In this document: positions 1 through 46,496 of the stretch, piece by piece | Position numbering within the stretch: the first letter of the stretch is position 1 | How the letters are laid out: every line of letters begins with the position of its first letter | From: a virus | DNA: 46,496 bases | Direction: 5' to 3' (one strand) | IMG/VR virus record: IMGVR_UViG_3300031952_000031 | Coordinates: 1 to 46,496 of that record | The notes under the pieces: generated by a model | What the model saw: only the letters and a program-made list of their open reading frames with translations | What the model was told of the DNA's origin: nothing | Databases searched by the model: none | Position numbers and translations under genes: made by a program

Positions 1-127
1 GCATTATATGATCAAGACCGTATGAAGGCGCTAGAGGAGGCCCTGAGACAATGAAAATATTGCTTCTGCCGGACAATATGAATAACTGGGCGATACATAA
101 CAAGGCCCTCGCTATCCAGAAGTTTCT
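1..127. repeat. Direct terminal repeat, left copy (circular contig overlap)
   Basis: This stretch is identical to 46370-46496. A perfect 127-bp end overlap is what a de Bruijn assembler with k=127 leaves when it walks round a circle, so it most likely marks a circular or circularly permuted genome rather than a biological terminal repeat. The repeat covers the end of the deacetylase-like gene and the start of the GT4 gene, which join without a gap across the seam. Confidence 0.93.
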
Positions 128-908
128 TCCGGAATATGAATATGATATCCAACCAGCATTTGGCAATAGAGATTGTCTTGTTAATGAGGAGAAATTCGAT
201 GTAGTTCACTTCCTCATCACAGCCGGTCTAACTCCAGATTTCTATGATTATATCATGTCTCATAAAAATAAAGTTGCGATAACCATAGTCAACGAGAGGT
301 CTTTGTTATATGGGCATCTCGGAAACCCAGAACAGTTAGACAAGATATTCAGAGAGTGCCCCTACGTTAACTCTTTGACTCCTATGATCGCTGAAAAATA
401 CAATATGCCTTACGTGAGGAACGGTATTGACAGGGATAAGTTCTTTAAGTTTAAGAAGCCGGTGATAGGATTCGCAGGGGCGGAATATATGGCATCAAAG
501 AATGTGGGACTTCTGGAAATGGTGTGCAAGGATTTAGGTCTGGAATTGAGATTGACCGGGTATATTTCTGCCCTGAATACCGGAGAGATAGAACATGAGA
601 AAATGCAGGACTTCTACCTGGGTTTGGACGTCTACGTGCATCCTTCGACCACAGAAGGCTTTAATAATACAATTATCGAAGCGTTATCTTGTAACATCCC
701 GGTATTGATGACGCGCGCGGGGGCGTGGAGAGAATTCGAAGGATGGGTTGAGTTTATCGAGCCTACGGTTGAGGATATAAAGTTTAAACTCCAGAAATAT
801 CTGGGACGTCGATTAATTGAACAGAGTTTCCTCTGGGAGCAGGTTATGCCAGAGTATAAAAAAATGTATGAGGCAATGAGAAATGCTCGTCCTTATAGAA
901 CAAACTAA
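51..908 (+). CDS. Glycosyltransferase, GT-B fold, GT4-like
   Basis: A 285-residue protein that probably transfers a sugar from a nucleotide-sugar donor to an acceptor in the cytoplasm. The C-terminal half has the GT4 donor-site pattern: a VHPSTTEGF segment, then the E-x7-E pair (about E202 and E210, EGFNNTIIE) and a PVLMT strand. The N-terminal half is a Rossmann-like domain starting KILLLPD. It is short for GT4, so the acceptor domain is reduced. The ATG overlaps the stop of the deacetylase-like gene across the circle seam (ATGA), and the 3' end overlaps the radical SAM gene by 26 nt, so the three are translationally coupled. Sugar and acceptor are unknown. The position among head genes suggests the virion or the host envelope as target, which is inference. 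Confidence 0.85.
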   Translation: MKILLLPDNMNNWAIHNKALAIQKFLPEYEYDIQPAFGNRDCLVNEEKFDVVHFLITAGLTPDFYDYIMSHKNKVAITIVNERSLLYGHLGNPEQLDKIFRECPYVNSLTPMIAEKYNMPYVRNGIDRDKFFKFKKPVIGFAGAEYMASKNVGLLEMVCKDLGLELRLTGYISALNTGEIEHEKMQDFYLGLDVYVHPSTTEGFNNTIIEALSCNIPVLMTRAGAWREFEGWVEFIEPTVEDIKFKLQKYLGRRLIEQSFLWEQVMPEYKKMYEAMRNARPYRTN

Positions 909-1695
909 TCATTGTGATTTGCAGTGCGTATCCTGCCCTAATAGGCTTAATCAGAGGCCCAGGGGAATCATGTCGGCCGCTAATTTCAGGCGCATAGTGG
1001 ATCAGATTAATCATCTTAAAGATGAACGTGTGGCATTGCATGGGTTCGGCGAACCATTACTCAGTTCTTATCTTTGGGAGAATTTAAAATATCTCGATTC
1101 TCGCGGATTCACGAAAGTTGACCTGACGTCTAACGGGATGTCCTGGATTGATAGTGATTTTAAGAAAATTACGGAATTCAAATGCATATCTTGGGTGAGG
1201 ATATCGTTAAATTCATCTTCAAAGGAAGTCATGGAAAAGATAAATGGAGGGGCTGACTTTGAGAAGGTGATTAATACCATAAGGAAACTTATTACTATAA
1301 AACCGAGATTCAAACTTCATGTTCAGTTGATGCAGTGCGATTTAACTTCTGGAGAAAGCCAAAAGGATTTCGAGAAATTAATCGGCAGTGAAGATTTTAT
1401 ATTTACTACAAAACCGATGCATGATTTCTATGGGCAGGTCAAAGATGGATTATCAGATAAGAGGAGCGTAGATTGTGAACAAGTTTTTGGTGCGCTCCCG
1501 ATGATGCATTGGGATGGCGATTTGGTAGGGTGTTGTGGAGATGATACTAAGAGCCAGGTTTACGGAAACGCATTAAGAGACGGGATATTCAGTGAAAAAA
1601 CCTTAATAAAAAGAAAGTTATTATCTGAGGCGCTTAAGATCAGAAATTATTCAGAATTGCCATTATGCCAAATCTGCGTCCAGAGGAGTAATTGA
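883..1695 (+). CDS. Radical SAM protein with SPASM/twitch-like C-terminus
   Basis: A 270-residue protein with the radical SAM [4Fe-4S] motif near its N-terminus: C11, C15 and C18 in HCDLQCVSC, the Cx3Cx2C spacing. It is followed by HGFGEPLL, matching the GEP-type SAM-binding strand. The C-terminal part has further cysteines (a CC pair near WDGDLVGCC and a final CQIC), as in SPASM or twitch domains that hold auxiliary Fe-S clusters. Such enzymes modify peptides, sugars or other small molecules by radical chemistry; the substrate cannot be told from sequence. It starts inside the GT4 gene and its TGA overlaps the next ATG (TGATG). Its place in an operon with glycosyltransferases and methyltransferases suggests a tailored sugar or peptide modification. 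Confidence 0.85.
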   Translation: MLVLIEQTNHCDLQCVSCPNRLNQRPRGIMSAANFRRIVDQINHLKDERVALHGFGEPLLSSYLWENLKYLDSRGFTKVDLTSNGMSWIDSDFKKITEFKCISWVRISLNSSSKEVMEKINGGADFEKVINTIRKLITIKPRFKLHVQLMQCDLTSGESQKDFEKLIGSEDFIFTTKPMHDFYGQVKDGLSDKRSVDCEQVFGALPMMHWDGDLVGCCGDDTKSQVYGNALRDGIFSEKTLIKRKLLSEALKIRNYSELPLCQICVQRSN

Positions 1696-2363
1696 TGGAA
1701 GATAAAATAACATATTGGGGAATCGGAGTTTGCCATCTATGCGGTCAAGAAAATAATTCCATCGCCAAGGAAGATTGGTATTTATGCTCTAGATGCGGAA
1801 CACAGTTTAGAAGCCTGGTTAATCCGTTATTTTATTCTAAAGTCGCTGAATCAAAAGATGAATTTAATAGCAGGATTTGCAGCCCCGTAAGAATCGCCGA
1901 AGTAAACGAGATTATAAAACGATTAGGAGATACCGAAGGAAAATCGATTATAGATATCGGTTGCGGCATGGGTTGGATCAGTGAATTATTATATAGACAG
2001 GGTGGATTCGGCAGAGTTTGCTGTACCGATTTGCCCAATAGAGATATACAAATCGAGAATAATAACATTGAAATATTCTATGATGATTCCGAAACTAACG
2101 GGATACCTGATAAATACAAAGGACAATTTGACTATTGTTTGGTTTATGATGTTATCGAGCATGTCAAATACCCCAGGAAGTGGTTCAATACATTGAGGCC
2201 GTTACTAAAAGAGAATGGCGTTATATTCGGTAGTTATATAGTACCGAGAGAATCTTTGCCGTTGTCGGAATGGAGATTTTCTACAAAGGAAGGAATTAGC
2301 AACATAGTAGATGGATTCCAGGTCATCTCAATTGACAATGGAAGGTTCCATTTAAAGGTATAA
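1695..2363 (+). CDS. Class I SAM methyltransferase with N-terminal zinc ribbon
   Basis: A 222-residue protein. The first 35 residues hold two CxxC knuckles (C13/C16 and C31/C34), a zinc ribbon. A Rossmann methyltransferase domain follows: motif I is DIGCGMGW (about residue 87) and a later acidic motif is YDVIEHVKYP. This layout recalls sugar or small-molecule methyltransferases of the UbiE/Methyltransf_11-12 type found in glycan clusters. A TTG at 1692 is also in frame, but the ATG at 1695 fits better with the GAGGAG upstream and overlaps the radical SAM stop (TGATG). The likely role is O- or C-methylation of the product made by the operon, which is inference. Confidence 0.8.
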   Translation: MEDKITYWGIGVCHLCGQENNSIAKEDWYLCSRCGTQFRSLVNPLFYSKVAESKDEFNSRICSPVRIAEVNEIIKRLGDTEGKSIIDIGCGMGWISELLYRQGGFGRVCCTDLPNRDIQIENNNIEIFYDDSETNGIPDKYKGQFDYCLVYDVIEHVKYPRKWFNTLRPLLKENGVIFGSYIVPRESLPLSEWRFSTKEGISNIVDGFQVISIDNGRFHLKV

Positions 2364-2365
2364 CT

Positions 2366-2866
2366 ATGCCTGATAGCTTAGAGAGACAGAAGTATCACGA
2401 GTGGTTGGAGAAGTTTAAGGCCTATTTGACTTCGGGGTGTCTTATTTACGACATAGGTAAATCGGCAAAATACGATTATGCCGATACGTTTAAGGAATAT
2501 AACTATAAGACTATAGATAAAGATATAAATAAAAATCCCGATATCGTTGCAGATATGGAGATATTAATTGAAACCTATAAAATAGATAACGCAGATGCAT
2601 TTATCTGTAATGGTGTGGTCGAGCAATGCGAAAATCCTTATCAGTTGTTTAAGGTTCTATTCGAATTACTTAAGCCGGGCGGATACGCTTTAATAGGCAC
2701 AGTCTTGACCGGCTTCCCTGTTTACGATAACGACAGGGTAAGATTCACAGTCGTGGGAATAAAGAAGGTTCTGAAGAAGCGCCAGTTAATCGATAGCGAA
2801 GTCATTTATAGAGCAGGCGTTACGGATCCGACTTATATGTATTTAATCGTAAAGAAGGAGAACTAA
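2366..2866 (+). CDS. SAM-dependent methyltransferase-like protein
   Basis: A 166-residue class I methyltransferase-like protein. Motif I is reduced (LIYDIGKS), a second strand ends in an acidic residue (KTIDKD), and post-motif I and III read CNGVVEQCENPYQLF and LLKPGGYALIG, as in Methyltransf_11/23 proteins. The glycine-rich motif lacks the usual GxGxG, so SAM binding may be weakened or altered. It begins 3 nt after the preceding methyltransferase and ends 2 nt before the head-tail connector gene, making it the last member of the modification cluster. It could act as a partner of the first methyltransferase or be inactive. Confidence 0.7.
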   Translation: MPDSLERQKYHEWLEKFKAYLTSGCLIYDIGKSAKYDYADTFKEYNYKTIDKDINKNPDIVADMEILIETYKIDNADAFICNGVVEQCENPYQLFKVLFELLKPGGYALIGTVLTGFPVYDNDRVRFTVVGIKKVLKKRQLIDSEVIYRAGVTDPTYMYLIVKKEN

Positions 2867-2867: not shown

Positions 2868-3296
2868 ATGTCACTAACCTTAGGAACTAATACTTGGATT
2901 ACGCTGGCGAATGCAGAACTATACATGGCCACAAGGCTGGGGGCCTCGACATTTTGGCATACCGCCATAGCGAAAGAAGCGGCGCTGGTTACGGCTTATA
3001 ACATGCTGGTGAATTGCGGATTATTCGAGATACCTTCTGAAGTTTCAGCCAATATGGAGCAGGCGCAATGCGAGATGGCGTTATTCCTTTTGCAACACGG
3101 AGCCGATATGGATGCGCGCATGGGCCTGCAGGCGCAGGGTGTGAGCCAGGCTGGCATTGTACAGGAGACTTATGGCAAGGAAGTTGAAGGAATTCCTTTA
3201 CCGCCTATCGTGAAGCAATTACTTAAGGAATACTTAATAGATTCTGATATACAAATAATCGCAATTGAACGCGACGAAAACGAAGAGGTCTCATGA
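2868..3296 (+). CDS. Head-tail connector/adaptor protein (DnaT_2-like)
   Basis: A 142-residue protein starting SLTLGTNTWITLANAE, the beginning typical of phage neck adaptors often labelled putative DnaT-like proteins. The N-terminal half is helical (ALVTAYNML, MEQAQCEMALFLL) as in gp6/Neck1-type adaptors that sit under the portal. An AAGGAG lies ahead of the ATG. The gene opens the connector block and is followed by overlapping small genes (ATGA at 3293-3296). The DnaT label is historical; the position between head and tail genes supports a structural role. Confidence 0.7.
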   Translation: MSLTLGTNTWITLANAELYMATRLGASTFWHTAIAKEAALVTAYNMLVNCGLFEIPSEVSANMEQAQCEMALFLLQHGADMDARMGLQAQGVSQAGIVQETYGKEVEGIPLPPIVKQLLKEYLIDSDIQIIAIERDENEEVS

Positions 3297-28713: not shown

Positions 28714-28750
28714 GGCCCCAGGAAACTGGGGCCTTGTCTTTATATATTTT
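28714..28750 (+). terminator. Hairpin with GAAA loop and T-rich tail
   Basis: GGCCCCAG (28714-28721) pairs perfectly with CTGGGGCC (28726-28733) around GAAA, followed by TTGTCTTTATATATTTT. It has the shape of an intrinsic terminator or attenuator between the SSB-like gene and the primase-helicase gene, and it shows that the primase frame upstream of 28763 is unlikely to be translated. Confidence 0.7.
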
Positions 28751-28762
28751 AAGGAGTCAACT

Positions 28763-31261
28763 TTGAATACTATCTATGAATTTATCACCAATCACGGGAA
28801 ACTTTCCGATAAACATATAGAAGAGTTAAGAGGTAAGCGCGGGTTTTCTGATGACACAATCACAAAACTGCGCTTTTTTTCTGGCGGTAAATACCTCTTG
28901 GAATTAGAGCAAGAAATCATTAAGGAATTTGATAAAGAATCGCTTATTGCAAATGGAATCTGCGTTGCATCTGGCAAGGACGCTACACTCTCGCCTACAC
29001 TCCTTGATAATCGAATTATTATTCCTTATCTTAATGCTGCAGGCAAATGCTATCTCCTGAGGCCTCATAAGCTTGGTCTTTCTTCTGTTCCGGTTGAGAT
29101 CTACTGTCCAGACTGGAATATCGTATCCGATCTCATAATGACAGAAGGTGAATTTAAAGCTGTTGCATCCGCTCAGTTAGGTATCCCGGCGATCGCTGTT
29201 CCTGGAATCAGTTCATTCTCTAAAGATAACTTTCAACGTCTGGTTAAATTCCTGAACGATGTTAAGGCGCATAATATCTGTATCCTCTTTGATAATGAAG
29301 AAAAATCAGATCCGAAATACAAGAACTATAAAGATAATCCTGCAGATCGCCACGATACTGAATTCTATGCTTACTTTATGGCACGACAACTTGATGCTGA
29401 AGGTTTCCGGGCGCAGGTGGGTACGTTGCCGGATTCCTGGCGTGTACAAGGTAAAGCCGATATCGATGGTGCCCTGGCCCAGGGCAAAACTAAGAATGAC
29501 CTATCTATAGTTATTGCCTCATCTAAAACAGCTAAGCAATATGTTGAAGAATTGAACAGGGAGGCGCAGATAGTTATCAGACGTAAGATGAGCCTGAAAT
29601 ATTTCCGCTCGCATATCCGCAGGGAATTTGGCAAGTATGTTGCTACAAGGCGCCGGGGCAAGACTGAGTGGGATGAAGAAATCGCTAATTTCACCATGAA
29701 GATTATCGCCACGCACCAAACTTCTGAAGGGATAATCCGCGAAATACAATTCACCAATGAATTCGGCGATCATTCATCATGTTTTGCGATTAACCCGGAA
29801 GATATGGGCGGAGCTGAAGGGTTCACTACATTTTGTTTTCGGCATGGTAATTTTATCTGGCGGGGACACAAAGAAGATCTCTCTAATATCTGGGAAGGCC
29901 TCTTCCTGGAGGATGACGGCCGGCATATTATCGAACCGGATCATATCGGCTGGATAGAATCGGAAGGTCTTTGGTTATTCGGAAATGTTGCGGTTGATAA
30001 AGAAGGAAAGGAGATGCGGCCGGATAAGAACCATATTTTCTGGCTTGAGAAAAAGGGCATCAAACCAATTGCCCTGGGAGTCACTAGCGGTAAGACGCAA
30101 ATTTCTGAAGGGATACCTTATGTATCACTTACGCCTTGCGATATCCTGGAAATTAAGAAGAGATTAACTGATACTATCGGCGAAATAGAGGCTGTGAAGT
30201 GCCTCGGGTGGGCTTCGGCCATACCTTACCTGGAGGATATTTTCGATGTCTACGGATGTTTTCCATTTCTCTTTATTACGGGACGGACTGGATCGGGTAA
30301 GTCGACAATTGCAGAGTGGATCACCTGTCTTTTTGGAATCGAAGACGCTGGCAAATCATTGTCGCAAACGACAGTTGTGGCCATTCAAAGGGCGCTTGGT
30401 TATTATTCAAGTTTACCCGTGTTCCTCGATGAATTCAGAAACACTTCAGATATTTCCTTCAAAACAGGATTCCTTCGCAACGTTTATAACCGACAGAGTT
30501 CGGGTAAAGGGATCAAGGCGAATTTTGGTATCCGCGAAGCTAAGGTCCGCGGTACGCTCATCATCGCCGGTGAAGAAACACCGAATGACAATGCGATCCT
30601 GAACCGCAGCATCCTGATTGAAATTATTAAAAAGAGCCGCATTATTAATCATTATGATTGGTTTACGCGCAACAAGTCAAAATTTTCCCATCATATTCTG
30701 GAGATAATTAAGAATAAAAAGCGTGACTTAGATCTATTCATGCGCGTCTTGGCCGAAGCAAAAGACTATCTAACTAAGCATGCCGGCGTGGATGACCGGA
30801 CAGCCGTTAATCATGCGGTCCTGTGCGCAGGCCACGCGATAACCTTTGGGGAAGAGGATCTGGCATTTACAGATATGATCATCCAGGAAGCGAAGAAGAC
30901 GAATACGGATTATCAGAAAGATAATATGATGCATGAGTTTATTTCCGATCTACAGGTTATGGCGCACAAAGGAGATCTTAAAGACCATTATTGGCTAGTT
31001 GAGGAAGGACAGATATTTCTCTATTTTGAGGCACTCTATAATCTCTGGTCCGCGGATGCTCGGAAGCGCGGCAAGGATCCGATGAAATCCTCAAGCCTGC
31101 GAGGTTACTTCAAAGAAGAAGAAGGATTTATAGGGTTAAGTGTACGAAAGCAAGTTAATGGTTTCTGGCGCAGGTGCATAACCCTGGATTATGAGAAATG
31201 CAACGAAGAGATTAAAAACTTGGTTGAAGTTAAATTACTGACAGCTACTGACAGTCACTGA
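28763..31261 (+). CDS. Primase-helicase: TOPRIM plus AAA+ (DUF927-like) replication protein
   Basis: An 832-residue protein. The frame runs from 28712, but that start lies in a terminator hairpin; a TTG at 28763 has AAGGAG 6 nt upstream and is preferred. The N-terminal third has a TOPRIM-like fold (MTEGEFKAVAS near 127, LFDNEEKSD near 176), as in DUF3854-type primases. The C-terminal half is an AAA+ helicase with Walker A GRTGSGKS (near 507), Walker B LPVFLDEF (near 556) and an arginine-rich sensor (RGTLIIAGEE). It most likely opens and primes the phage origin. The last codons run into the CTGNCAG array. Confidence 0.8.
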   Translation: MNTIYEFITNHGKLSDKHIEELRGKRGFSDDTITKLRFFSGGKYLLELEQEIIKEFDKESLIANGICVASGKDATLSPTLLDNRIIIPYLNAAGKCYLLRPHKLGLSSVPVEIYCPDWNIVSDLIMTEGEFKAVASAQLGIPAIAVPGISSFSKDNFQRLVKFLNDVKAHNICILFDNEEKSDPKYKNYKDNPADRHDTEFYAYFMARQLDAEGFRAQVGTLPDSWRVQGKADIDGALAQGKTKNDLSIVIASSKTAKQYVEELNREAQIVIRRKMSLKYFRSHIRREFGKYVATRRRGKTEWDEEIANFTMKIIATHQTSEGIIREIQFTNEFGDHSSCFAINPEDMGGAEGFTTFCFRHGNFIWRGHKEDLSNIWEGLFLEDDGRHIIEPDHIGWIESEGLWLFGNVAVDKEGKEMRPDKNHIFWLEKKGIKPIALGVTSGKTQISEGIPYVSLTPCDILEIKKRLTDTIGEIEAVKCLGWASAIPYLEDIFDVYGCFPFLFITGRTGSGKSTIAEWITCLFGIEDAGKSLSQTTVVAIQRALGYYSSLPVFLDEFRNTSDISFKTGFLRNVYNRQSSGKGIKANFGIREAKVRGTLIIAGEETPNDNAILNRSILIEIIKKSRIINHYDWFTRNKSKFSHHILEIIKNKKRDLDLFMRVLAEAKDYLTKHAGVDDRTAVNHAVLCAGHAITFGEEDLAFTDMIIQEAKKTNTDYQKDNMMHEFISDLQVMAHKGDLKDHYWLVEEGQIFLYFEALYNLWSADARKRGKDPMKSSSLRGYFKEEEGFIGLSVRKQVNGFWRRCITLDYEKCNEEIKNLVEVKLLTATDSH

Positions 31262-31545
31262 CAGTAGCAAAAAATGAGCACTGGCAGGCGTAAATGATTG
31301 AAAACGTTATGTTTAAATGTAGCACTGACAGACTGACAGCATTTCTGGAATATTTCACGTACAGGTTTAATTTCCACTCTGGACGGTTTCAGTGAAGTCA
31401 AAATGGCATTATGCAGACGTAATATACATTTTGGGCAAAAACACTGTCAGTGCTGGCAGGGGTTTCGCAATATTCTCAAAACATTAAAGTTGCGCCTGCC
31501 AGTAGTCAAAAAATGGAACTGTCAGTAGCTGGCAGGGACTGGCAG
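31238..31545. repeat. CTGNCAG iteron array, candidate replication origin
   Basis: The palindromic heptamer CTGNCAG occurs 12 times in 308 bp, at 31238, 31248, 31258, 31281, 31325, 31333, 31444, 31453, 31496, 31519, 31529 and 31539. Both ends of the array have three copies exactly 10 bp apart, so bound proteins would sit on one face of the helix. AT-rich stretches (for example 31292-31320 and 31421-31440) lie between. The array follows the primase-helicase gene, overlapping its last 8 codons, and fills the only 300-bp gene-free gap in the early region. This is the layout of an iteron-type origin. A partition site for the ParB-like protein is an alternative. Confidence 0.75.
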
Positions 31546-31561
31546 GAAATCGGAGGTAGGT

Positions 31562-31837
31562 ATGTTTGAACACCGATTAGCTCAAGAAGCAACAAAACAG
31601 GATGATTGCGCGGCATTCCTAGACCTGTACGCCCGTTTTAGGCAAGACATCCTGGATCCGGCCGCGGACAGGATGCGCATCGCTAAATTTGAAGTCAAAA
31701 TAGACAATGCTTGGCACGCGCTATCTCAAGACAAGCGGGATATCATAACAGTTGCGCTTTTGACTAAGAAGATGCTCCCGGATGAGATAGCGCTAGCCAT
31801 AAAGCACCTTAAGGCAAAGGTGGTGAGGGTGGTATGA
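31562..31837 (+). CDS. Small helical protein, candidate iteron partner
   Basis: A 91-residue helical protein (QDDCAAFLDLYARFRQDIL, KFEVKIDNAWHALSQDKRDIITVALL) starting right after the iteron array, with GGAGGTAGGT at the ATG. I do not recognise it. Its position makes it a candidate for iteron binding or origin regulation, which is only inference. It overlaps the next ORF by ATGA. Confidence 0.55.
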   Translation: MFEHRLAQEATKQDDCAAFLDLYARFRQDILDPAADRMRIAKFEVKIDNAWHALSQDKRDIITVALLTKKMLPDEIALAIKHLKAKVVRVV

Positions 31838-32037
31838 ATAACCACTCAACCAGATTAGGCATTTTGATGGCTCTGATGTATTCGATGGGAATGCATAAAG
31901 ATTTTGGAATCAGTCCTGGGCAAAAGATAGATTATAGCAAAATGAATCCTCCACAGTCCGAAGAATCAAAACAATATTACAAGAAAAGGGCAGCAGAAAA
32001 GCGAAAGCGGAAATGTATAACCACATCAAATCCTTAA
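31834..32037 (+). CDS. Small basic protein of unknown function
   Basis: A 67-residue protein, coupled by ATGA to the previous gene and overlapping the helicase gene by 25 nt. It has a methionine-rich start (LGILMALMYSMGMHKDFG) and a lysine/arginine-rich tail (QYYKKRAAEKRKRK), typical of small nucleic-acid-associated phage proteins. Not recognised. Confidence 0.5.
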   Translation: MNNHSTRLGILMALMYSMGMHKDFGISPGQKIDYSKMNPPQSEESKQYYKKRAAEKRKRKCITTSNP

Positions 32038-33206
32038 TCGATTCCGGCCGTAACATCTTCATCACTGGCTCAGCCGGCACGGGAAAATCCTATATCCTAA
32101 ACCAGTTGCGCGAAGATTTTGATATGGATGTGACAGCTTCTACCGGCATGGCGGCCATCAATGTATCCGGAACTACAATACACAGTTTTTCCGGAATAGG
32201 TATCGGTGAACGGTCTGCAGATGAAGTTTATTGGCGCATACGTTCCGAAACACGCGATAGGATACGCAATTGCAAACTACTTGCCATTGATGAGATCTCA
32301 ATGCTCAGCGCGGAGATTCTTGATTTAATAGATGCAGTGTTTAAGCTTATTCGGGGCAATAAAAATCCTTTCGGCGGAATTCAACTTATCGTTATTGGAG
32401 ACTTCTTACAACTTCCGCCGGTAGCAAAAGATGAGCAGCTGCCAGCTAACTTCGCCTTTGAGAGTAACGTTTGGACAGAAGCCAATTTTGAGACTGTACT
32501 CTTAGAAAAGGTATACCGACAGACCGATAAAGAATTCTTGGCAGCCTTAGGTAATATCCGGATAGGCAAGGCAATGGATATCCAAGGCTATAAAACTGAT
32601 GAGCATGCGATCCGGTTATTTGCGCTTAATCGTTTGGCTGATGCGTATAACTTCGATAAGCTTCGTGCGATAAATAAACCCACTCGGTATTTTGAAGCGA
32701 TTGACTCCGGAGAAGGCAAGGCGATATCGCTGATTTATAAAAATTGCCTGGCGCCGAAGGACCTTTATTTGAAAATTGGCGCGAGGGTAATGCTTCTTAT
32801 TAATAAAGAAATAGATTTAGGATTAATCAACGGTTCCACGGGGGAGGTGATAAATATAACGGAAGGAGGTGTAGAAGTAAAGTTTGACAACGGTGTAACT
32901 TTGTCTTTCGGCCCGGAGATCTGTGCGCGTATTATCGTGGATAAGATAGAAGTCGCGCGAAGGATACAGATACCTCTGCGTTTGGCCTGGGCGATCAGTA
33001 TCCACAAATCGCAAGGAATGACACTCGACAAAATGCACGTCGACTGTGAAGGGATATTTGAATGCGGACAGGCGTATGTCGCGTTATCCAGGGTAAGAAG
33101 CAAAGAGGGGTTATCAGTAGTGAATCTTCGGCCGGAATTAATCATGGCGAATGAAAAGGCGGTAAAATTTTATCAACAACTTACTCAAGAGGCCTTGAAG
33201 GCCTAA
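32013..33206 (+). CDS. PIF1/RecD-like SF1B helicase
   Basis: A 397-residue protein. Walker A is GSAGTGKS (19-26), followed by TASTGMAAINVSGTTIHSF (motif Ia), LLAIDEISML (motif II) and GDFLQLPPV (motif III). The C-terminal part has AISIHKSQGMTLDK and AYVALSRVRS, the UvrD_C_2/PIF1 endings. It is a 5' to 3' single-strand helicase acting in replication or recombination. It is shorter than cellular PIF1, as phage Dda-like helicases are. Confidence 0.9.
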   Translation: MYNHIKSLIDSGRNIFITGSAGTGKSYILNQLREDFDMDVTASTGMAAINVSGTTIHSFSGIGIGERSADEVYWRIRSETRDRIRNCKLLAIDEISMLSAEILDLIDAVFKLIRGNKNPFGGIQLIVIGDFLQLPPVAKDEQLPANFAFESNVWTEANFETVLLEKVYRQTDKEFLAALGNIRIGKAMDIQGYKTDEHAIRLFALNRLADAYNFDKLRAINKPTRYFEAIDSGEGKAISLIYKNCLAPKDLYLKIGARVMLLINKEIDLGLINGSTGEVINITEGGVEVKFDNGVTLSFGPEICARIIVDKIEVARRIQIPLRLAWAISIHKSQGMTLDKMHVDCEGIFECGQAYVALSRVRSKEGLSVVNLRPELIMANEKAVKFYQQLTQEALKA

Positions 33207-33218
33207 GGAGAGGAAAAC

Positions 33219-34835
33219 ATGGATATGAAATTAATTAAATTAGTAAATATTAAGTCTTCGCCGTTTAACTCGAGGAAAACATTCGATGCGGCGAAGATGA
33301 AGGAGTTAACTGCATCGGTGGAAGAGAAAGGAATCCTTAACCCGGTCCTGGCGAGACCATTGAACAGTAAGCCGGGATATTTTGAACTCGTCTGCGGTGA
33401 GCGGCGCATGCGCGCAGCTGTCGCAGCTGGCCTAGAAGAGATTCCCGCGGTGATCCGGACGTTAACGGATCAGCAGGTCCTCGAGTGCATGGTCATCGAA
33501 AACCTGCAGCGCGAAGATATCCATCCATTGGAGGAAGCTGAAGGATATGAGCAGCTCTTAAAGAAGCATGGATACAAAGACGCCAAGGATATCGCCGCTA
33601 AGGTTGGCAAGAGCTCAACATATATTTACGGCCGGTTGAAGTTGTGCGAGCTGATACCGGAGAACCGTAAGTTTTTTTATGACGGGAAATTCTCTCCGTC
33701 AGTAGCGCTCCTGGTAGCCAGGGTGCCGGCGCACCTGCAGAAGGAAGCGGGCAGCAAGGTGGCGCGCGGAGAATACGGCCGGGGTAATCCTATGCAACTG
33801 AGGGAGGCGCAGGAATATATCCACAAACACTTTATGCTGCAGCTTAAGGAGGCGCAGTTCGACACCAAAGAGAAAGGCCTCGCCGGCAAGGTGTCGTGCG
33901 CGGAATGCCTCAAGCGTACTGGTAATCAGAAGGAACTCTTTGCGGACGTAAGCGGTGCCGATACGTGCACGGACCCGGCATGCTTCGAGGCGAAGAGGAA
34001 CGCATTCACGCAGCGCACGATCGCGGACCTGACGAAGAAGGGCAGGCAGGTCATTTCGCAGGAAGAGGCCAAGAAGTTATTTAAGTACGAGAATGATGAG
34101 TCGCCGGAAAATAAATACACCAACGTGGAGGAGAAGAATTACTACGGGCGCAAGTACGTTTCGTTCAAGGATATCCTTAAGGCATCGAAGGACGTCAGGA
34201 CGGTCTTTGCGATCCAGCCGTACACCGGGAAGGTCATCGAGATGATCAACAACATCGACATCCCTAATGCCCTGAAGAAGGCCGGGATCAAAGTGAGCGC
34301 CGACAGTTCGAGCGGCCGCAGTTCTAAGGACCTGGCGAAGGCCAAGACTATGAATCGAGTGCGCGAGGCTAAGCGTGGGTTCTGGGTCAACAAAGTCTCT
34401 ACCGCCAAGGATCGCCGTTGCATGAACGTGGTGATCCTGGACATCCTGCTGGAAGATCTGGGGGTGGGGGAAGCCAATGATATCTTGAAGCTAAAGAAGA
34501 GCGACCGCTGGACCAGGACCTGGGATATCCCCAAGCTCTATGAATTAGGCGATGAGGCTGTTCAGAAGTTTATCGTCAAGGTTATTTCCAAGAAATCCGA
34601 ATATCTTATGGATGATGACCTTGAATTTTTATCAACCAAGCTTGGGTTTAATGTAGCCAAGGATTATGTGATCACGGAAAGCTATCTGCAGGCCTGCACT
34701 AAGGACCAGCTGGTGAAATTGGCCGGGGAGATAAAGATTAATATCGATACGGTTGAAGATAAAAAGGGTGCCTTGGTAGCATTTATTCTGAAGTCTGCGC
34801 CCAAGGGTAAGGTGCCGAAGGAGTTGGTGAAATGA
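33219..34835 (+). CDS. Large ParB-like protein with zinc-finger insert
   Basis: A 538-residue protein. Residues 5-105 are a ParB/Srx N-terminal domain with the CTP-binding CERRxR-type motif as GERRMRA (about 60) and ENLQREDIHPLEEA. A KorB-like HTH follows (IAAKVGKSSTYIYGRLKLCEL). Cysteines in CAECLKRTG and CTDPACF suggest a zinc finger at about 228-255. The rest, about 280 residues, is unassigned. No ParA is present. ParB-like phage proteins regulate transcription, load on DNA as CTP clamps or act against host functions. The gene is GC-richer by eye (about 33300-34500) than its neighbours, suggesting separate ancestry. Confidence 0.85.
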   Translation: MDMKLIKLVNIKSSPFNSRKTFDAAKMKELTASVEEKGILNPVLARPLNSKPGYFELVCGERRMRAAVAAGLEEIPAVIRTLTDQQVLECMVIENLQREDIHPLEEAEGYEQLLKKHGYKDAKDIAAKVGKSSTYIYGRLKLCELIPENRKFFYDGKFSPSVALLVARVPAHLQKEAGSKVARGEYGRGNPMQLREAQEYIHKHFMLQLKEAQFDTKEKGLAGKVSCAECLKRTGNQKELFADVSGADTCTDPACFEAKRNAFTQRTIADLTKKGRQVISQEEAKKLFKYENDESPENKYTNVEEKNYYGRKYVSFKDILKASKDVRTVFAIQPYTGKVIEMINNIDIPNALKKAGIKVSADSSSGRSSKDLAKAKTMNRVREAKRGFWVNKVSTAKDRRCMNVVILDILLEDLGVGEANDILKLKKSDRWTRTWDIPKLYELGDEAVQKFIVKVISKKSEYLMDDDLEFLSTKLGFNVAKDYVITESYLQACTKDQLVKLAGEIKINIDTVEDKKGALVAFILKSAPKGKVPKELVK

Positions 34836-41852: not shown

Positions 41853-41913
41853 CGAACGCAAGTTCGCGATACCTGCTTCGATGGGTCCTTAAGAAGCGGA
41901 GAGAAATAAGGAC
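41853..41913 (+). ncRNA. Hairpin plus H-type pseudoknot upstream of the decoration and capsid genes
   Basis: Four bases after the scaffold stop, CGAAC (41853-57) and GTTCG (41862-66) form a hairpin with a GCAA loop. Next, stem 1 is CTGCTTC (41873-79) with GAAGCGG (41893-99). Stem 2 is GTCCTTA (41885-91), inside the stem 1 loop, with TAAGGAC (41907-13). The crossing makes an H-type pseudoknot with loops GATGG, A and AGAGAAA. The third loop is A-rich, as in stable pseudoknots. It ends 31 nt before the decoration ATG. Possible roles are a regulatory leader, a riboswitch-like fold or an mRNA stabiliser. Confidence 0.6.
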
Positions 41914-41943
41914 AAAAGTTTAATTAATAAAAGGAGGATTCAA

Positions 41944-42312
41944 ATGGCAGAAACAGGATTGAAATTAAGATGTTCAGAATTCGAAACCATCAAAATCACT
42001 GCGGCTAGCCCCAGTACCTATGTGGCGGGGTTTTTGACCAAGGTCGAGGATACCGTCTGCGTGGTTATTGATGCTATTGCGGCTTTGGCAACAGGCATGG
42101 CAGTGTACAGAGCAAAGAAGATTCTCTTACCCAAGAGAGTCGGTACTACCTGCGTATTCGCGGCAGGCGATAAAGTGTATTACAACGGTAGCGTGAATAA
42201 GTTGGACATCGCTACGACTTCCACATACACGCTTTGCGGAAGGGCATTAGAGGCAGCCGGTGCTACGGCAACGGAAGTGCTTGTTGATTTTAACGGAGCC
42301 TGCGCGGCTTAA
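41944..42312 (+). CDS. Capsid decoration protein (DUF2190-like)
   Basis: A 122-residue beta-rich protein with AAAAGGAGG ahead of the ATG. It reads as the DUF2190 decoration type: an N-terminal strand set, then AGFLTKVEDTVCVVI, ALATGMAVYRAKKILLP, FAAGDKVYYNG and a closing TEVLVDFNG. It precedes the major capsid gene, as decoration genes do (lambda D precedes E). It binds the expanded capsid surface. In this phage it is a plausible acceptor for glycosylation, which is inference. Confidence 0.75.
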   Translation: MAETGLKLRCSEFETIKITAASPSTYVAGFLTKVEDTVCVVIDAIAALATGMAVYRAKKILLPKRVGTTCVFAAGDKVYYNGSVNKLDIATTSTYTLCGRALEAAGATATEVLVDFNGACAA

Positions 42313-42376
42313 CTTACTCGGCTGAGATAGCCACAGGGATTAAGAGTTCTTAATAGTTTTAACAAGGAGGATTCAG

Positions 42377-43384
42377 ATGAAAGGCAGAATTATAGCCGAC
42401 TGGACGAAGGTAGATTTTGCAAACCCTTCTCTAAGGGCCAAGGTAGTGGGTGCTTTACAGCACTTTATGAGACAGCCCGCTGCGGTCGATAGTCCGATCC
42501 GCAAGGCGTTCCAGGCTTTCGCAACAAAAGGTGATTTTCCCGCAGAGATCCTGCAGATACTCGAGAGGTTCCACGCCGTGCCGGATTATGATTTAGGGTA
42601 CGAGCAGATTTTCGACATCAGGGATTTCACCGGCACCAATGAAGCAGGTTTTAAGATTCTCGATGTAGAAAGCGGTTTAACCTTCGCTAAGGTTCTTACC
42701 GGAGAAAAAGCGAAGATATTCAAAATGTCCGGTGCAATCACCGAAGTTACCTTCGATATGTACGGTGGCGGTCTGAATTGGGATCGCAAACTGATTGACG
42801 ACCGTCAGTATTGGACGCTCGAAGATAACGCCATAGCATTCCGCAATAAAGCATATTCATCGAAGGCAGCTGCATTTTACGCTCTGTTAGAGGCCGCAGG
42901 CGCTGCTTCTGGCAACATTCAGAGTACCTGGGCAGCTGTAACACCGGCATCCGTAGCTTCATCGAATGAAAATTACGATTCGATTCGCGATGTCAATACC
43001 ATCAACGCTGCTATTTTAGCCATCCTTACTGATCTTAAGGATAAAGGCGTGGGTGCTAATGCGAATAGTCAATTCGTGATCGTCGCGCCGATTGCTATCA
43101 AATCAAGAATCGAAAGAGCCTTAAAGATGATTCAGCAGCCGGTGGTTGGATCCGGAGAACGTTTGAATTTTAACGTCCGGGCGCAGTACACCCTTATGCT
43201 TGCCAGCAATTCTTACTACTATGTTTGTTTCCCGAAGGCAAAGTGTAAAGGTGGCAACAGAATGGATCTCACCCTCTTCGACAAGTTCGATATCGAATCC
43301 TACGCGGATACAATGGTCGGCTGGATGAGGTATGGCGGAGCGGTTGGTGATACTGACCAGACTGCGCGCTGCGTACTTGCTTAA
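42377..43384 (+). CDS. Major capsid protein, HK97 fold
   Basis: A 335-residue protein with AAGGAGG upstream, between decoration and the modification genes. It shows an N-terminal arm (DWTKVDFANPSLRAKVVGAL), the EAGFKILDVESGLTFAKVLTGEKAKIF E-loop region, the P-domain helix (DNAIAFRNKAYSSKAAAFYALLEA) and A-domain strands (QFVIVAPIAIKSRIERALK, YYYVCFPKAK). Size and order match HK97-fold capsids. A short hairpin (ATTAAGA/TCTTAAT near 42343-42358) stands before the start. A hairpin follows the stop. Confidence 0.85.
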   Translation: MKGRIIADWTKVDFANPSLRAKVVGALQHFMRQPAAVDSPIRKAFQAFATKGDFPAEILQILERFHAVPDYDLGYEQIFDIRDFTGTNEAGFKILDVESGLTFAKVLTGEKAKIFKMSGAITEVTFDMYGGGLNWDRKLIDDRQYWTLEDNAIAFRNKAYSSKAAAFYALLEAAGAASGNIQSTWAAVTPASVASSNENYDSIRDVNTINAAILAILTDLKDKGVGANANSQFVIVAPIAIKSRIERALKMIQQPVVGSGERLNFNVRAQYTLMLASNSYYYVCFPKAKCKGGNRMDLTLFDKFDIESYADTMVGWMRYGGAVGDTDQTARCVLA

Positions 43385-43399
43385 CCTGTAAGTAATCTG

Positions 43400-43429
43400 T
43401 AGGTCGGGAGTGTAAAAGCTCCCGGCCTA
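43400..43429 (+). terminator. Strong hairpin after the capsid gene, no U-tract
   Basis: TAGGTCGGGAG (43400-43410) pairs with CTCCCGGCCTA (43419-43429), 11 pairs with one G-T, around TGTAAAAG. No run of T follows, so it is more likely a partial terminator, RNA-stability element or processing block that lowers expression of the modification operon relative to capsid than a full stop. Confidence 0.6.
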
Positions 43430-43448
43430 CTCTTAAGAGGAGTTACTT

Positions 43449-44783
43449 ATGGTTAGCAAGGTAGTGCGTATGTGCGATGTCAAGAGTCCAGAGCAGAGAA
43501 CCGTCGAGGCATTCGCCGAGATCACAGATAGCCAAGGTAACCTGAGAAGCAATAAACGCATTCAAGACATCTTTCCGAAAGATATATGGAATGGTAAACG
43601 ATGCTTTATTATTGGCGGGGGACCTTCGCTTAAGAGTTTTGATTTCAACCAACTCAAGGGCGAATTAGTCATTACAGTTAATCGCGGCCTTGAGGTATGT
43701 TCATTCTCTGCAATCAATGTCTGCACGGACGCGCGCGTATGGGGATGGTATGAGAGCAGTAAAGATTTAGGTATCGAAGCGACAGAGAAGTTCCGGTCCT
43801 ATAAAGGTTACAAAGTTTGGCTTAACGTCCAGGCATTTCCCTTCCCGGAAGATATCTATACAATCAATCCGCTGGCCCCGACTGATTTCACTTTTAACGA
43901 TTATTACCGGGGTATTCCTATATATGGCAACTCAGGATTGAATGCTATCATGCTGGCTGCCTGTCTAGGCGCCAATCCTATTTATCTTCTGGGTTTTGAT
44001 TTGTATGGAATAGATGGCAAACTCGCTAATTATCATTCAGGGTATCCAGAAAATATGGGGCAGAGTGATGAATTATATAAAGTCTTCCAGGATGACTTTC
44101 ACGCGGCATCTCTTCAATTAAATAATCATACCAAGGTTATTAATCTTAATCCTAAAAGTAATTTAAAATATTTTGAGTTTGGTAAATTTGAAGACATTCC
44201 AAAAATAAAACGGCCTATTATAATTTCATTCTATACCGATGAATACGAAGCAGCTGCCAAGGCGATGGAGCGTTCCGCTATTAAGTTTGGGTTAGAAACG
44301 GACATCGTTCCTGTATTAACAGATGGAGAATCTTGGCTTAAGATTATTTATAGTCGAGCGAACTTTGTTAAGGAGATGTTACTAAAGTACAAGAGACCCA
44401 TCGTGTGGCTTGATAGTGACGCTTTTATTATTCACTATCCAGAATTATTCGATAACCTCGACGCTGATTTCGCCGTGCATTTTCTTAAGACAGCAGAAAT
44501 ATACGGCGGCGGATATCCATACGAAAAGGAACTCTTGGGCGGAACGATGTTTTTTAACTATACCCCCAAGGCTTTAGAATTGATTGATAAATGGCTAGAG
44601 GATAACGCCAAGCATCCCAACATGCATTTATCTCAATGGGTGCTCCAGGAGACCGTAAAAAATTGGGACGGCAAGATGCTTGAATTGCCTCCTAACTATA
44701 CTCAGATATTCGACACGATGGCAAGATATGGCGAGCCGGTTATTGAGCATTACGTGTTCAGCAGAAAGACAAGACATGACTAA
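43449..44783 (+). CDS. Two-domain glycosyltransferase: MAF/DUF115-like plus GT-A-like
   Basis: A 444-residue protein, first of the modification operon, with AAGAGGAG ahead of the ATG. Residues 45-235 carry the DUF115/MptE-like signature FIIGGGPSLKSF (GGGPSL near 56), VITVNRGLEV, GNSGLNAIMLA and YLLGFDLYG, the domain of motility-associated glycosyltransferases that attach nonulosonic acids to flagellin. Residues 250-440 look like a GT-A fold with a DxD in VWLDSDAF (about 319-326), LGGTMFFN and HLSQWVLQE. A single protein joining the two enzyme types could add two sugars in sequence. Acceptor unknown. It overlaps the next gene by 8 nt. Confidence 0.8.
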   Translation: MVSKVVRMCDVKSPEQRTVEAFAEITDSQGNLRSNKRIQDIFPKDIWNGKRCFIIGGGPSLKSFDFNQLKGELVITVNRGLEVCSFSAINVCTDARVWGWYESSKDLGIEATEKFRSYKGYKVWLNVQAFPFPEDIYTINPLAPTDFTFNDYYRGIPIYGNSGLNAIMLAACLGANPIYLLGFDLYGIDGKLANYHSGYPENMGQSDELYKVFQDDFHAASLQLNNHTKVINLNPKSNLKYFEFGKFEDIPKIKRPIIISFYTDEYEAAAKAMERSAIKFGLETDIVPVLTDGESWLKIIYSRANFVKEMLLKYKRPIVWLDSDAFIIHYPELFDNLDADFAVHFLKTAEIYGGGYPYEKELLGGTMFFNYTPKALELIDKWLEDNAKHPNMHLSQWVLQETVKNWDGKMLELPPNYTQIFDTMARYGEPVIEHYVFSRKTRHD

Positions 44784-45045
44784 AGAAACGCAGGGTAAAC
44801 GAATAGCAGATGGTGAATGGCCTGAACATGCAGGCGAGTATTCTAAGTTTGTTGAGAAAAGCGACAAGATTTCCTGGATAATGATTCCGCCGGGCATGAA
44901 TAGACCGGGAAGATTATCTGTGCATACGGTTGTTGAGCATGAGGACGGCACTATTACGGTGTCTCCGTCTATTCTTTTTACGGAAGATTCCCAAGGCCCC
45001 GGTTGGCACGGCTACCTTGAGAAAGGCATTTGGAGAGAATGTTAA
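44776..45045 (+). CDS. DUF6527-like small protein
   Basis: An 89-residue protein whose frame is open to 44680, but the ATG at 44776 lies at the preceding stop. It contains GEYSKFVEKSDKISWIMIPPG, TVVEHEDGTITVSPSIL and PGWHGYLEKGIWREC, resembling DUF6527-type phage proteins (SPS and WHGYL landmarks). DUF6527 proteins occur in phages and alongside ubiquitin-like conjugation systems, without an agreed role. Its place between two glycosyltransferases is unusual. It overlaps the next gene by 7 nt. Confidence 0.6.
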   Translation: MTKETQGKRIADGEWPEHAGEYSKFVEKSDKISWIMIPPGMNRPGRLSVHTVVEHEDGTITVSPSILFTEDSQGPGWHGYLEKGIWREC

Positions 45046-45947
45046 AACCTTACACGTTGCTACTCTTAGGCCGGCACACTGATCAGAAAGACCTGGATAT
45101 CGCACATTCTACGGAATGCTGGCATCAGATCACTATCGCGCTGTATGAAAATTTCAAGGTGTTAGGCATTAATATTTTATTTCATCATGTCCACTATCCG
45201 AATGAAATAGCCTGGACGGAATTGCCTAAGGCTGATGCGGTATTGTTTTTAGGATTGACTGAGAGTTGGGAAGAACTAAATAAGCAATCGGTGAGGTTCG
45301 TTACCGGATGCAAAAAGTTATTTACTATCTGTGAGTTTCCTTTGACCGATGGCGCAGACTGGAGTTTTAGTTTCGGGGTTAAATCCTCTGGTGAAAGAAT
45401 AACACTTATACCACTTCCAATATATAAACAATTATATCAGAACGTCCCTAAAATTCCCAAGTCCATAATGGTTGATCATTGGCAAGTAGATAATAATTGG
45501 GATTGGACTTATAAAATTGAGAAATGGCTAAAAGAAGTTAAGGATGAGTTTAATATATATAGGCAGGTTCAGGATGAGCCGAGTGTTGAGGTAGGAGACC
45601 GGCAAGCCAGGATAAGTCCATATTTGAAACAACTTAAGCAACTTCCTTTTCCAGAATATCTGAAGGCGACCGATACCTTGGAGACCTTTATCGTTACGCA
45701 CTACGAAAGCTATGGGTATGGAATACTGGATATGATTGCCAGGGGAATCCGAGTTGTCGCTCCTGATACTTTTATTCATTCCCAATACGCGGAACTTTAT
45801 ATGCCTAAGTTTAGCGATAAGCAATCGCTACTTAATATTTTACGCACTCCTCCGGATGAAGAAGGGCTTAAAAGTAACATTAGGAAATTAACTGACTATA
45901 GCGAAGTGGTCAGGATCATCGATGAGCAGATTAGGAGGATGTTATGA
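45039..45947 (+). CDS. Glycosyltransferase-like protein, GT-B type
   Basis: A 302-residue protein; the ATG at 45039 is used, with GGAGAG just upstream (a TTG at 45030 is also in frame). The N-terminal half has KPYTLLLLGRH and DAVLFLGLTESW, a Rossmann-like layout. The C-terminal part has PYLKQLKQLPFPEYLKATDTLETFIVTHYESYGYGILDMIARGIRVVAP, where Y-E-S-Y-G-Y-G-I-L-D-M-I-A-R-G-I-R-V-V-A-P is the donor-site helix and strand seen in GT4-like enzymes. The family is less certain than for the GT4 gene at 51. It ends by ATGA overlap with the deacetylase gene. Confidence 0.7.
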   Translation: MLKPYTLLLLGRHTDQKDLDIAHSTECWHQITIALYENFKVLGINILFHHVHYPNEIAWTELPKADAVLFLGLTESWEELNKQSVRFVTGCKKLFTICEFPLTDGADWSFSFGVKSSGERITLIPLPIYKQLYQNVPKIPKSIMVDHWQVDNNWDWTYKIEKWLKEVKDEFNIYRQVQDEPSVEVGDRQARISPYLKQLKQLPFPEYLKATDTLETFIVTHYESYGYGILDMIARGIRVVAPDTFIHSQYAELYMPKFSDKQSLLNILRTPPDEEGLKSNIRKLTDYSEVVRIIDEQIRRML

Positions 45948-46423
45948 TTAACATGTACCGCGACGATGACATTGCTGTAACCTCTAACTGCGATTTGTTG
46001 AGGCGTGTGCATGACCTTTTCATTAAGTATAACAAAACGCACACTATTGCGGTCCTGATGAAAGATATCTGGGAGAATAAGGAAATCTGGTATTGGTTGA
46101 TGACCGCCCCTAACCTGGAGATATGCCTGCATGGATGGGATCATAAGGATTATTCGGTGATAAGCGAGGAAGAAATCAGGCATGATCTTACCTTGTGTTT
46201 TGATTATTGGAAGAAGAGATTAGCAGATCATAAGAATTTTTATATACCGATTAGTAAATTCCTCCCGCCTTGGAATAGAATAAGCGCGACTTTAATTAAG
46301 GTATGCGATGAATTCGGACTAGAAGTTGACCCTAGAGCTGGAGGATTAGTTTATAATTTTCATTATTGGGCATTATATGATCAAGACCGTATGAAGGCGC
46401 TAGAGGAGGCCCTGAGACAATGA
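45944..46423 (+). CDS. NodB-like polysaccharide deacetylase
   Basis: A 159-residue protein with the outline of the NodB homology fold: motif 1 is YRDDDIA (aspartates 7-9), motif 2 is HGWDH (H63 and H67, the H-x3-H zinc ligands), and motif 3 is KFLPPWNR (106-112). It removes N-acetyl or similar groups from a sugar. At 159 residues it is short. The ORF runs through the terminal repeat and its stop overlaps the GT4 ATG at position 51 on the circle. It supplies a free amine that later enzymes could modify, which is inference. Confidence 0.75.
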   Translation: MINMYRDDDIAVTSNCDLLRRVHDLFIKYNKTHTIAVLMKDIWENKEIWYWLMTAPNLEICLHGWDHKDYSVISEEEIRHDLTLCFDYWKKRLADHKNFYIPISKFLPPWNRISATLIKVCDEFGLEVDPRAGGLVYNFHYWALYDQDRMKALEEALRQ

Positions 46424-46496
46424 AAATATTGCTTCTGCCGGACAATATGAATAACTGGGCGATACATAACAAGGCCCTCGCTATCCAGAAGTTTCT
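46370..46496. repeat. Direct terminal repeat, right copy
   Basis: Exact copy of bases 1-127. It holds the last residues of the NodB-like deacetylase gene (stop at 46421-46423) and the first 77 bases of a second copy of the GT4 glycosyltransferase gene (ATG at 46420, equal to position 51). Unique genome length is therefore about 46,369 bp. Confidence 0.93.

Follow-up and report, generated by a model that had tools for sequence, protein, structure and literature searches.

Phage shells are usually regarded as bare protein, and Maf modifies flagellin in the cytoplasm before assembly. Capsid glycosylation by phages is already known from mycobacteriophages, and the gene cassette analysed here would be a variant of it. 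According to the accessible portions of PMC11256854 and PMC12363180, which cite Freeman et al. 2023, mycobacteriophages Che8, Corndog, Myrna, and Rita glycosylate their virions; phage-encoded glycosyltransferases there decorate the capsid and/or the tail tube, whereas for the present locus, with phage-encoded glycosyltransferases as well, a virion modification is predicted from the genes. In the available text on this system, the glycosyltransferase genes of the Che8-like phage Maravista lie close to the genome's 3' end rather than beside the major capsid protein (MCP) gene as here, and, unlike here, no exchangeable cassette of radical SAM, deacetylase, and multiple methyltransferase genes is described. 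The flagellar glycosylation islands with Maf flagellin glycosyltransferases (accessible portions of PMC11339370 and PMC3426422) resemble our locus in that a transferase of the DUF115 superfamily is tied to the gene of a polymer-forming protein made in very large amounts and is surrounded by variable sugar genes. Unlike those islands, the locus belongs to a phage and not to a flagellum; this phage has no flagellin, and no nonulosonic-acid pathway was seen in the window (the whole stretch of 46,496 nucleotides analysed here, IMG/VR record IMGVR_UViG_3300031952_000031). The chlorovirus PBCV-1 likewise encodes a GT-A enzyme for capsid glycosylation, A64R, in which the GT-A domain is fused to a methyltransferase and is thought to act on methylated capsid glycan (available text of PMC4691112). 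However, PBCV-1 is a giant virus of eukaryotes whose capsid is folded differently, A64R lacks a MAF/GT42-like domain, and that text describes no capsid-linked cassette. The sequence-only reading of this DNA had known no system with the same gene set, and a literature search, mostly lacking subscription papers, also found no prior description.

An exact direct repeat of 127 bp forms the two ends of the window (1-127 = 46370-46496); thus position 46420 equals position 51, and the circle without the second repeat copy is 46,369 bp. Eight co-oriented ORFs (g1 to g8), read on across the contig ends, fill the space between the MCP gene (42377..43384; 335 aa; Pfam Phage_capsid_4, E 4e-4; phrog_24071, 1.4e-21) and the head-tail adaptor gene Ad1 (2868..3296; phrog_477, 1.2e-5), all on the plus strand. 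The eight-gene operon proposed from the sequence was thus found intact, contiguous over the contig ends. Upstream of the MCP gene lie the terminase genes and a phrog_122 head-decoration gene, and a MuF-like gene (3598-4539) lies in the right flank; Ad1 is also the right border in most of the related cassettes that extend that far. The expected ATGA and TGATG couplings were present at g3/g4 and g4/g5 (ATGA, the latter on the circle) and at g6/g7 (TGATG), the other junctions being overlaps (8 nt at g1/g2, 7 nt at g2/g3, 26 nt at g5/g6) or short gaps (2 nt at g7/g8, 1 nt at g8/Ad1). The region 43449-46423 had no DNA similarity to any named phage.

The first gene, g1 (43449..44783, plus strand), encodes a two-domain glycosyltransferase, as assigned with PF01973, phrog_4603, and fold matches. 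Residues ~45-246 form a conserved DUF115/MptE-like, GT42-like domain (GGGPSL at 56, HxGYP at 196), and residues ~257-440 form a GT-A domain with DSD at 322-324; the AF2 model had a pLDDT of 87.5. The N-terminal domain matched PF01973 with E 1.4e-5 and a score of 25.4, below the gathering score of 34.6, and 25 of 27 g1 orthologues matched the same profile (E down to 4e-6); phrog_4603, 'alpha-2,3-sialyltransferase', was matched with 1.3e-20. The nearest relatives of this domain by sequence were the GT42 sialyltransferases, with the Campylobacter Cst-II profile, whose enzyme makes lipooligosaccharide sialosides, at E 6e-4 only (residues 5-148, the motifs GxGPSL and IYLxGxD lying inside the alignment). 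Genes for CMP-sialic acid were not seen in the window; the host might supply this donor. By fold (Foldseek), the nearest were MptE/HPPK and mammalian sialyltransferases, all weak, and flagellar Maf was absent among the listed profile and Foldseek matches. Accordingly, of the 'MAF/DUF115 plus GT-A fusion' named from the sequence, the two domains and the GT-A half stood, and the MAF label holds at the superfamily level only. Since the superfamily also contains MptE/HPPK and thiamin pyrophosphokinases, the g1 N-terminal domain need not be a transferase acting on protein. The best PDB fold match of the GT-A half was PBCV-1 A64R (2p6w, E 9.5e-9), deposited as the enzyme glycosylating the PBCV-1 major capsid. 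Note that A64R is one of many GT-A enzymes, and the match may mark merely the retaining GT-A class.

As for the remaining genes, Pfam profile searches matched the GT4 enzyme, the NodB-like deacetylase, the radical SAM enzyme, and both methyltransferases that had been called from the sequence. The deacetylase g4 (45944..46423), NodB/DUF2334-like, matched PF01522 (Polysacc_deac_1; E 1.5e-5, above gathering) and PF10096 (3e-4), and carries the CE4 motifs RDDD (6-9), HGWDH (63-67), and PPWNR (108-112), likewise present in locus L003; a PDB sequence search gave nothing useful for it. The GT4-family glycosyltransferase g5 (51..908) matched PF13692 (3.1e-10), PF00534 (9e-9), and phrog_2170 (2e-13). 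The radical SAM enzyme g6 (883..1695; PF04055, 5e-13) has CxxxCxxC at 11/15/18 and further cysteines at 198, 217, 218, 262, and 265 that suggest a SPASM/twitch-like auxiliary cluster and are conserved in L003; the Pfam SPASM profile itself did not match the window g6, and its nearest PDB sequence was BtrN, an aminocyclitol dehydrogenase (E 1.4e-4, residues 3-64 only). The class I SAM methyltransferase g7 (1695..2363; PF13489, Methyltransf_23, 4e-16; SAM motif DIGCGMG), with an N-terminal CxxC...CxxC zinc-ribbon-like segment and a possible longer TTG start at 1692, is absent from L003, and it is followed by a second, short class I methyltransferase, g8 (2366..2866; PF08241, Methyltransf_11, 6.3e-5). 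Two of the calls turned out weaker than claimed. The small protein g2 (44776..45045; 89 aa), whose ATG overlaps the g1 stop, matched DUF6527 (PF20137) with E 3e-4 and 21.0 bits, below the gathering score of 23.6; L003 has a TylF-like methyltransferase in its place, and our literature search found no paper linking DUF6527 with phage. The probable GT-B-type enzyme g3 (45039..45947) had no match in Pfam, NCBIfam, or PDB sequence searches and a weak one to phrog_2518, and its GT-B-like ESYGYG motif (ESYGYGILD near residue 223) was spotted by eye, so that the function of g3 is the weakest supported among the four GT-like domains. These six genes, too, are on the plus strand, as is g6. In comparison with L003, g3 showed 89% amino acid identity (dN/dS 0.034) and g8 71% (dN/dS 0.08), and dN/dS was ~0.04 for g1, g3, and g5, with dS near saturation; as judged from these sequence comparisons, these ORFs are under purifying selection and are not chance ORFs.

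Relatives were found with the MCP as the anchor (35 in viral contigs). Among 32 viral loci that were selected by the MCP and extend downstream of it, 31 had g1 immediately 3' of the MCP gene, as had all six loci from MAGs, mostly of Candidatus Aminicenantes; counting every locus, g1 was present in 92 of the 96 that had the MCP profile, and the MCP-g1 gap was nearly always <0.8 kb. All seven strong full-length g1 matches among 142 host-class genomes and the MAG loci were MCP-adjacent. Relatives of g1 (80 of 246 g1-like stretches were kept) also occurred in other head modules, next to phrog_617/10, 247, 1328, and 1623 head proteins. A random host insertion, the outcome that would have spoken against a functional cluster, is thus excluded, since the position and g1 are kept in dozens of related phages. 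No g1 follows the MCP gene in L025, one of the MCP relatives, or in the Microcystis phage MACPNOA1, the one distant named relative of the MCP, which lacks the cassette; thus, this capsid fold can do without g1. Distances indicated co-inheritance of g1 with the MCP, but the co-variation was weaker for g1 (Spearman 0.31) than for the portal (0.60), so g1 itself was probably sometimes exchanged.

The genes between g1 and Ad1 were found to be hypervariable. In pairs with 60-70% MCP identity, about 5% of the cassette genes were common, whereas the portal, protease-like, decoration, g1 N-domain, Ad1, and MuF genes were shared in 100%; listed same-contig duplicates were dropped before these statistics, and the near-identical contigs L068/L069, L052/L053, and L100/L101 remain. 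The same cluster order in relatives, which the earlier reading had suggested looking for, therefore holds for the position and g1; the other genes are interchangeable cargo that this phage has in common chiefly with one close relative. The exact eight-gene set as a conserved unit was ruled out, g1 alone persisting. Judging from their families, the replacement genes are again glycan enzymes, almost all soluble: the 162 cargo proteins included 24 GT2, 20 Methyltransf_24, 8 radical SAM, and 4 LicD proteins, and, more rarely, PIG-L (3), cytidylyltransferase-like (3), epimerase (3), and sulfotransferase (1) proteins.

The MCP-g1 gap is predicted to form a strong RNA hairpin (43392..43432, plus strand; -30.1 kcal/mol, z = -6.7) with no clear U-tract. 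A comparable hairpin was predicted in the same gap of nearly all relatives tested, and the sequences are unrelated; it might perhaps be a leaky terminator or a stabiliser of the mRNA end. A simple terminator scan did not detect this hairpin, hits of the consensus promoter/terminator scan over 41900-46496 were no more numerous than in shuffles, and an Rfam search gave no match.

We consider, with a probability of about 0.7, that the block is a virion (probably capsid) glycosylation island in which a MAF/GT42-like transferase is conserved and the tailoring genes are interchangeable. Phage-encoded glycosyltransferases were confirmed for g1 and g5 by Pfam, PHROG, and fold matches. The g1 product would be a sugar transferase dedicated to the virion, the invariant MAF/GT42-like domain of which would add, in the cytoplasm, the first or key sugar to newly made capsid (or decoration) protein, much as Maf decorates flagellin ahead of its export. 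Lengthening of the glycan would fall to the fused GT-A domain, g3, and g5, the deacetylase g4, the radical SAM enzyme g6, and the methyltransferases g7 and g8 would tailor its sugars, and the sugar-nucleotide donors would be mostly host-supplied; a deacetylated, methylated, and radical-modified sugar, as proposed earlier, is one plausible product. The acceptor candidates are the MCP, a decoration protein, or another virion protein, with the MCP gene presumed to be, or to be near, the target; conserved S/T columns in the MCP, only four, were uninformative for acceptor sites. Surface variation is the likely purpose, given that turnover in the cassette greatly outpaces that in the virion genes: the glycan may affect recognition or binding of the particle by host surface glycans, decoy vesicles, competing phages, or grazers, or else the stability of the particle.

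The sequence-only reading had placed the sugar on the capsid or on host surface glycans during late expression; the glycan operon in the virion cluster stands, with the virion, during late expression, as the most likely target. Seroconversion or receptor masking, in which LPS or another host glycan would be altered in lysogeny or late infection against superinfection or adsorption to debris, appears unlikely. It would suit a phage that is probably temperate, given its integrase (20132-21133) and S24/HTH repressor (21839-22459), LPS precursors are also substrates of soluble glycosyltransferases and methyltransferases, and Cst-II, the GT42 relative of the g1 N-terminal domain, sialylates lipooligosaccharide; however, the cassette is in the late virion operon, away from the lysogeny genes, and g1 goes with the MCP gene in almost all relatives. 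A host-surface target is less likely also because membrane proteins are few (of 172 cassette proteins in the relatives, 10 seem to be inserted in a membrane or secreted, several of these being signal-peptide-like), and because no flippase or polyprenyl-linked family, namely nothing like GtrA/GtrB, Wzx, or polyprenyl-transferases, is in the listed cassette family counts. Unlike O-antigen conversion (gtr-type) modules, the eight cassette proteins of the window include no membrane flippase or integral membrane glycosyltransferase, and no TM segment was called in them.

The MCP linkage could also reflect operon order only, with the tail tube, a tail fibre, or a collagen-like virion protein as the acceptor. 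Mycobacteriophages glycosylate tail tubes besides capsids (accessible portion of PMC12363180), two cassettes (L029 and L033) contain collagen-like proteins, and Caulobacter phage C1 has a g1-like gene with an FkbM methyltransferase gene 3' of its tail fibre genes. But the whole family has g1 directly 3' of the MCP gene, far from the tail genes, and g1 relatives adjoin head genes in unrelated head modules, which leaves such tail or adhesin glycosylation quite improbable. The phage DNA is a very improbable target. Hypermodification of DNA with diverse glycans by phage glycosyltransferases has been described (Pyle 2024, as cited in the available text of PMC12619734), and glycosylated hydroxymethyl bases would protect against restriction; yet no thymidylate-synthase/hydroxymethylase family (PF00303) was present in the genome, with working controls, no base-modification family appeared among the window proteins scanned with Pfam, the tailoring enzymes belong to types that act on sugars or small molecules, and a DNA target gives no reason for the capsid linkage.

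Beyond virion glycosylation in this phage, we tentatively propose, at a little short of even odds, that the Aminicenantes-phage lineage has an MCP-linked hypervariable glycan locus, in which the GT42/MAF-like transferase would provide capsid acceptor specificity, the swapped cassette would define the particle 'serotype', and the transferase would have been recruited beside several unrelated capsid types. Such a locus would correspond, in phages, to the O-antigen or flagellar glycosylation islands of bacteria; the lineage, of phages of uncultivated bacteria that are mainly Candidatus Aminicenantes, would have 'serotypes' that include radical-SAM-made sugars not known from virions. Capsid-linked glycan genes are near-universal in one lineage, and their diversification is much more rapid than that of the virion, a sign of strong selection on particle-surface chemistry. 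If true, the locus would provide a testable case for serotype-like glycan variation in phages of environmental bacteria, with an acceptor predictable from gene order, and soluble modular glycan-tailoring enzymes acting on a protein scaffold in the cytoplasm.

An exact direct repeat of 127 bp was located at both termini of the window, which therefore maps as a circle of 46,369 bp; the repeat makes the two terminal stretches (43449-46423 and 51-2866), which the sequence-only reading had joined, a single block. Its eight co-oriented ORFs (g1-g8) occupy the interval that separates the major capsid protein (MCP) gene (42377-43384) from the gene for a head-tail adaptor (Ad1; 2868-3296), and every cassette junction, including that with the adaptor gene, was overlapping or of 1-2 nt. 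The neighbours encode both terminase subunits (small and large), a protein for head decoration, a MuF-like protein and connectors, which places the block within the head operon. Judging from its integrase and S24/HTH repressor genes, the phage is probably temperate. The early region (24474-34835) encodes an SNF2-type helicase, Pam3-phage-like gp33/gp34 proteins, a VRR-NUC nuclease, a DUF3854 primase-like protein, a PIF1-like helicase and a ParB-domain protein.

From the sequence, the best account of the block is a putative glycosylation of the virion by a conserved transferase, g1 (43449-44783, plus strand), together with exchangeable tailoring genes. The g1 N-domain belongs to the PF01973/DUF115 superfamily (match in 25 of 27 orthologues; the window protein was below the gathering score). 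This domain matched phrog_4603, 'alpha-2,3-sialyltransferase' (1.3e-20), and, when used as a profile, Campylobacter Cst-II of GT42 (6e-4). With Foldseek, the isolated N-domain (pLDDT 92) matched MptE/HPPK, thiamin pyrophosphokinase and ST8SiaIII/ST6GALNAC2 (E ~1e-3 to 1e-2), and these matches of the predicted fold place it in the superfamily without fixing its activity. The C-half forms a GT-A domain, in which a DxD motif is present, and the top PDB match of the full g1 model was PBCV-1 A64R (E 9.5e-9), with the deposition text 'involved in the glycosylation of the major capsid of PBCV-1'. Lower-ranked matches were further GT-A enzymes, e.g., blood-group and alpha-1,3-galactosyltransferases and glycogenin. 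The C-half was variable among relatives, in which single-domain forms (240-310 aa) and fusions of 840-1020 aa with methyltransferase, capsule-synthesis or GT29-like domains were found. Among the other genes, g4 encodes a CE4-like deacetylase, g5 a GT4, g6 a radical SAM enzyme that also has the cysteines of an auxiliary cluster, and g7 and g8 methyltransferases. A clear family match was not found for g3, previously called GT-B, and the DUF6527 likeness of g2 was weak. The nearest PDB sequence to g6 was BtrN, an aminocyclitol dehydrogenase, over the first 64 residues of g6.

The MCP search of viral contigs gave 35 relatives (38-96% identity), three of which end at the MCP; among the remaining 32 loci, some of them near-duplicates, g1 was directly 3' of the MCP gene in 31, the sole exception being L025. 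In genome contigs, the MCP profile detected six loci from MAGs, all with g1 after the MCP gene: four in Candidatus Aminicenantes (three MAGs), one in Omnitrophota and one in an 'Acidobacteria' MAG, which is listed in the same class as the Aminicenantes genome G001. G001 has two prophage-type copies, in contigs of 189 kb and 415 kb, and these lengths support integration in its host class. In 142 genomes of this class, the MCP adjoined every strong full-length g1 match, one further partial copy was in the contig of a strong match, and none of five weak matches was adjacent to an MCP. In one Aminicenantes prophage (L130:133-1845; G005:C113), a second g1-like open frame directly follows the first, as tandem paralogues. 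The g1 N-domain search of viral contigs gave 246 related stretches, of which 80 were kept; in all pooled loci, the MCP profile occurred together with g1 in 92, the two lying <0.8 kb apart in nearly every case. Because these searches select for g1, the proportion free of this bias is that from the MCP-selected loci.

In related loci, the stretch from g1 to the adaptor gene contained other genes over a length of 0-7.6 kb. When 43 cassettes were compared in pairs, gene sharing was 5% at 60-70% MCP identity, 25% at 70-80% and ~45% at 90-100%, whereas the portal, protease-like, decoration, g1 N-domain, Ad1 and MuF genes were 100% shared at MCP identity of at least 60%. Compared with its closest relative, L003 (MCP 96%), the window carries g2 where L003 has a TylF-like methyltransferase, and it has g7 in addition. 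The dN/dS values against L003 (g1, 0.039; g3, 0.034; g5, 0.039; g6, 0.13; g8, 0.08) were in the range of those of MCP and MuF (0.05 each), all being rough because dS was near saturation. Distances of the g1 N-domain correlated with those of the MCP (Spearman 0.31; 0 of 500 permutations), below the portal (0.60) and about as the protease-like gene (0.37), and those of the C-half hardly did (0.15). The 162 cassette proteins scanned in relatives included 24 GT2, 20 Methyltransf_24, 8 radical SAM, 4 LicD and 3 cytidylyltransferase-like proteins, with PIG-L, epimerase, sulfotransferase and cupin families; by these family matches, the content is functionally coherent, and the LicD and cytidylyltransferase-like proteins suggest that some relatives have decorations of the phosphocholine or phospho-polyol type. 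A hydropathy search detected a membrane or signal segment in 10 of 172 cassette proteins, mostly from two odd loci. The L017 and L020 cassettes, unlike others, contain several signal-peptide-like, possibly secreted proteins.

The MCP-g1 gap (43385-43448) contains a strong hairpin (-30 kcal/mol, z -6.7), which recurred in almost every relative whose gap is about as long, its position kept and its sequences different. Many of these hairpins have no clear U-tract, and for this reason the element may be a leaky terminator holding cassette expression under the MCP level.

The cassette might instead modify the host surface, which is less likely because of its position in the operon and because membrane-type proteins are few and no flippase family is among those counted; glycosylation of the DNA is unlikely, since no gene for base modification turned up among the window proteins scanned. 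Under virion glycosylation, the most likely predicted acceptor is the MCP or the decoration protein, and a tail or collagen-like protein is possible. Collagen-like proteins with 39 and 52 uninterrupted Gly-X-Y repeats are encoded within or at the end of the cassettes of two relatives (L029:14515-16098 and L033:16886-18226, respectively) and are possibly glycosylated head fibres. Mycobacteriophages are already known to glycosylate both capsid and tail (PMC11256854, PMC12363180), and in chloroviruses the capsid is glycosylated by enzymes of the virus itself (PMC4691112); the present cassette is a candidate for such a system. Our literature search found no MCP-linked, MAF/GT42-like, hypervariable glycan cassette.

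In loci without the family MCP, g1 was still by head genes (major head proteins phrog_617/10, 247 and 1328, and virion protein phrog_1623). The g1-like genes adjoining head modules of other MCP types (L062, L065, L071, L097, L081, L082, L103, L108 and L115) suggest repeated recruitment. Caulobacter phage C1 (L132; gp162-gp167) is a jumbo phage whose host has been cultivated; directly after its tail fibre genes, a g1-N-domain-like gene leads a small cluster that includes a gene for an FkbM methyltransferase. This phage offers a tractable system in which to test for virion glycosylation.
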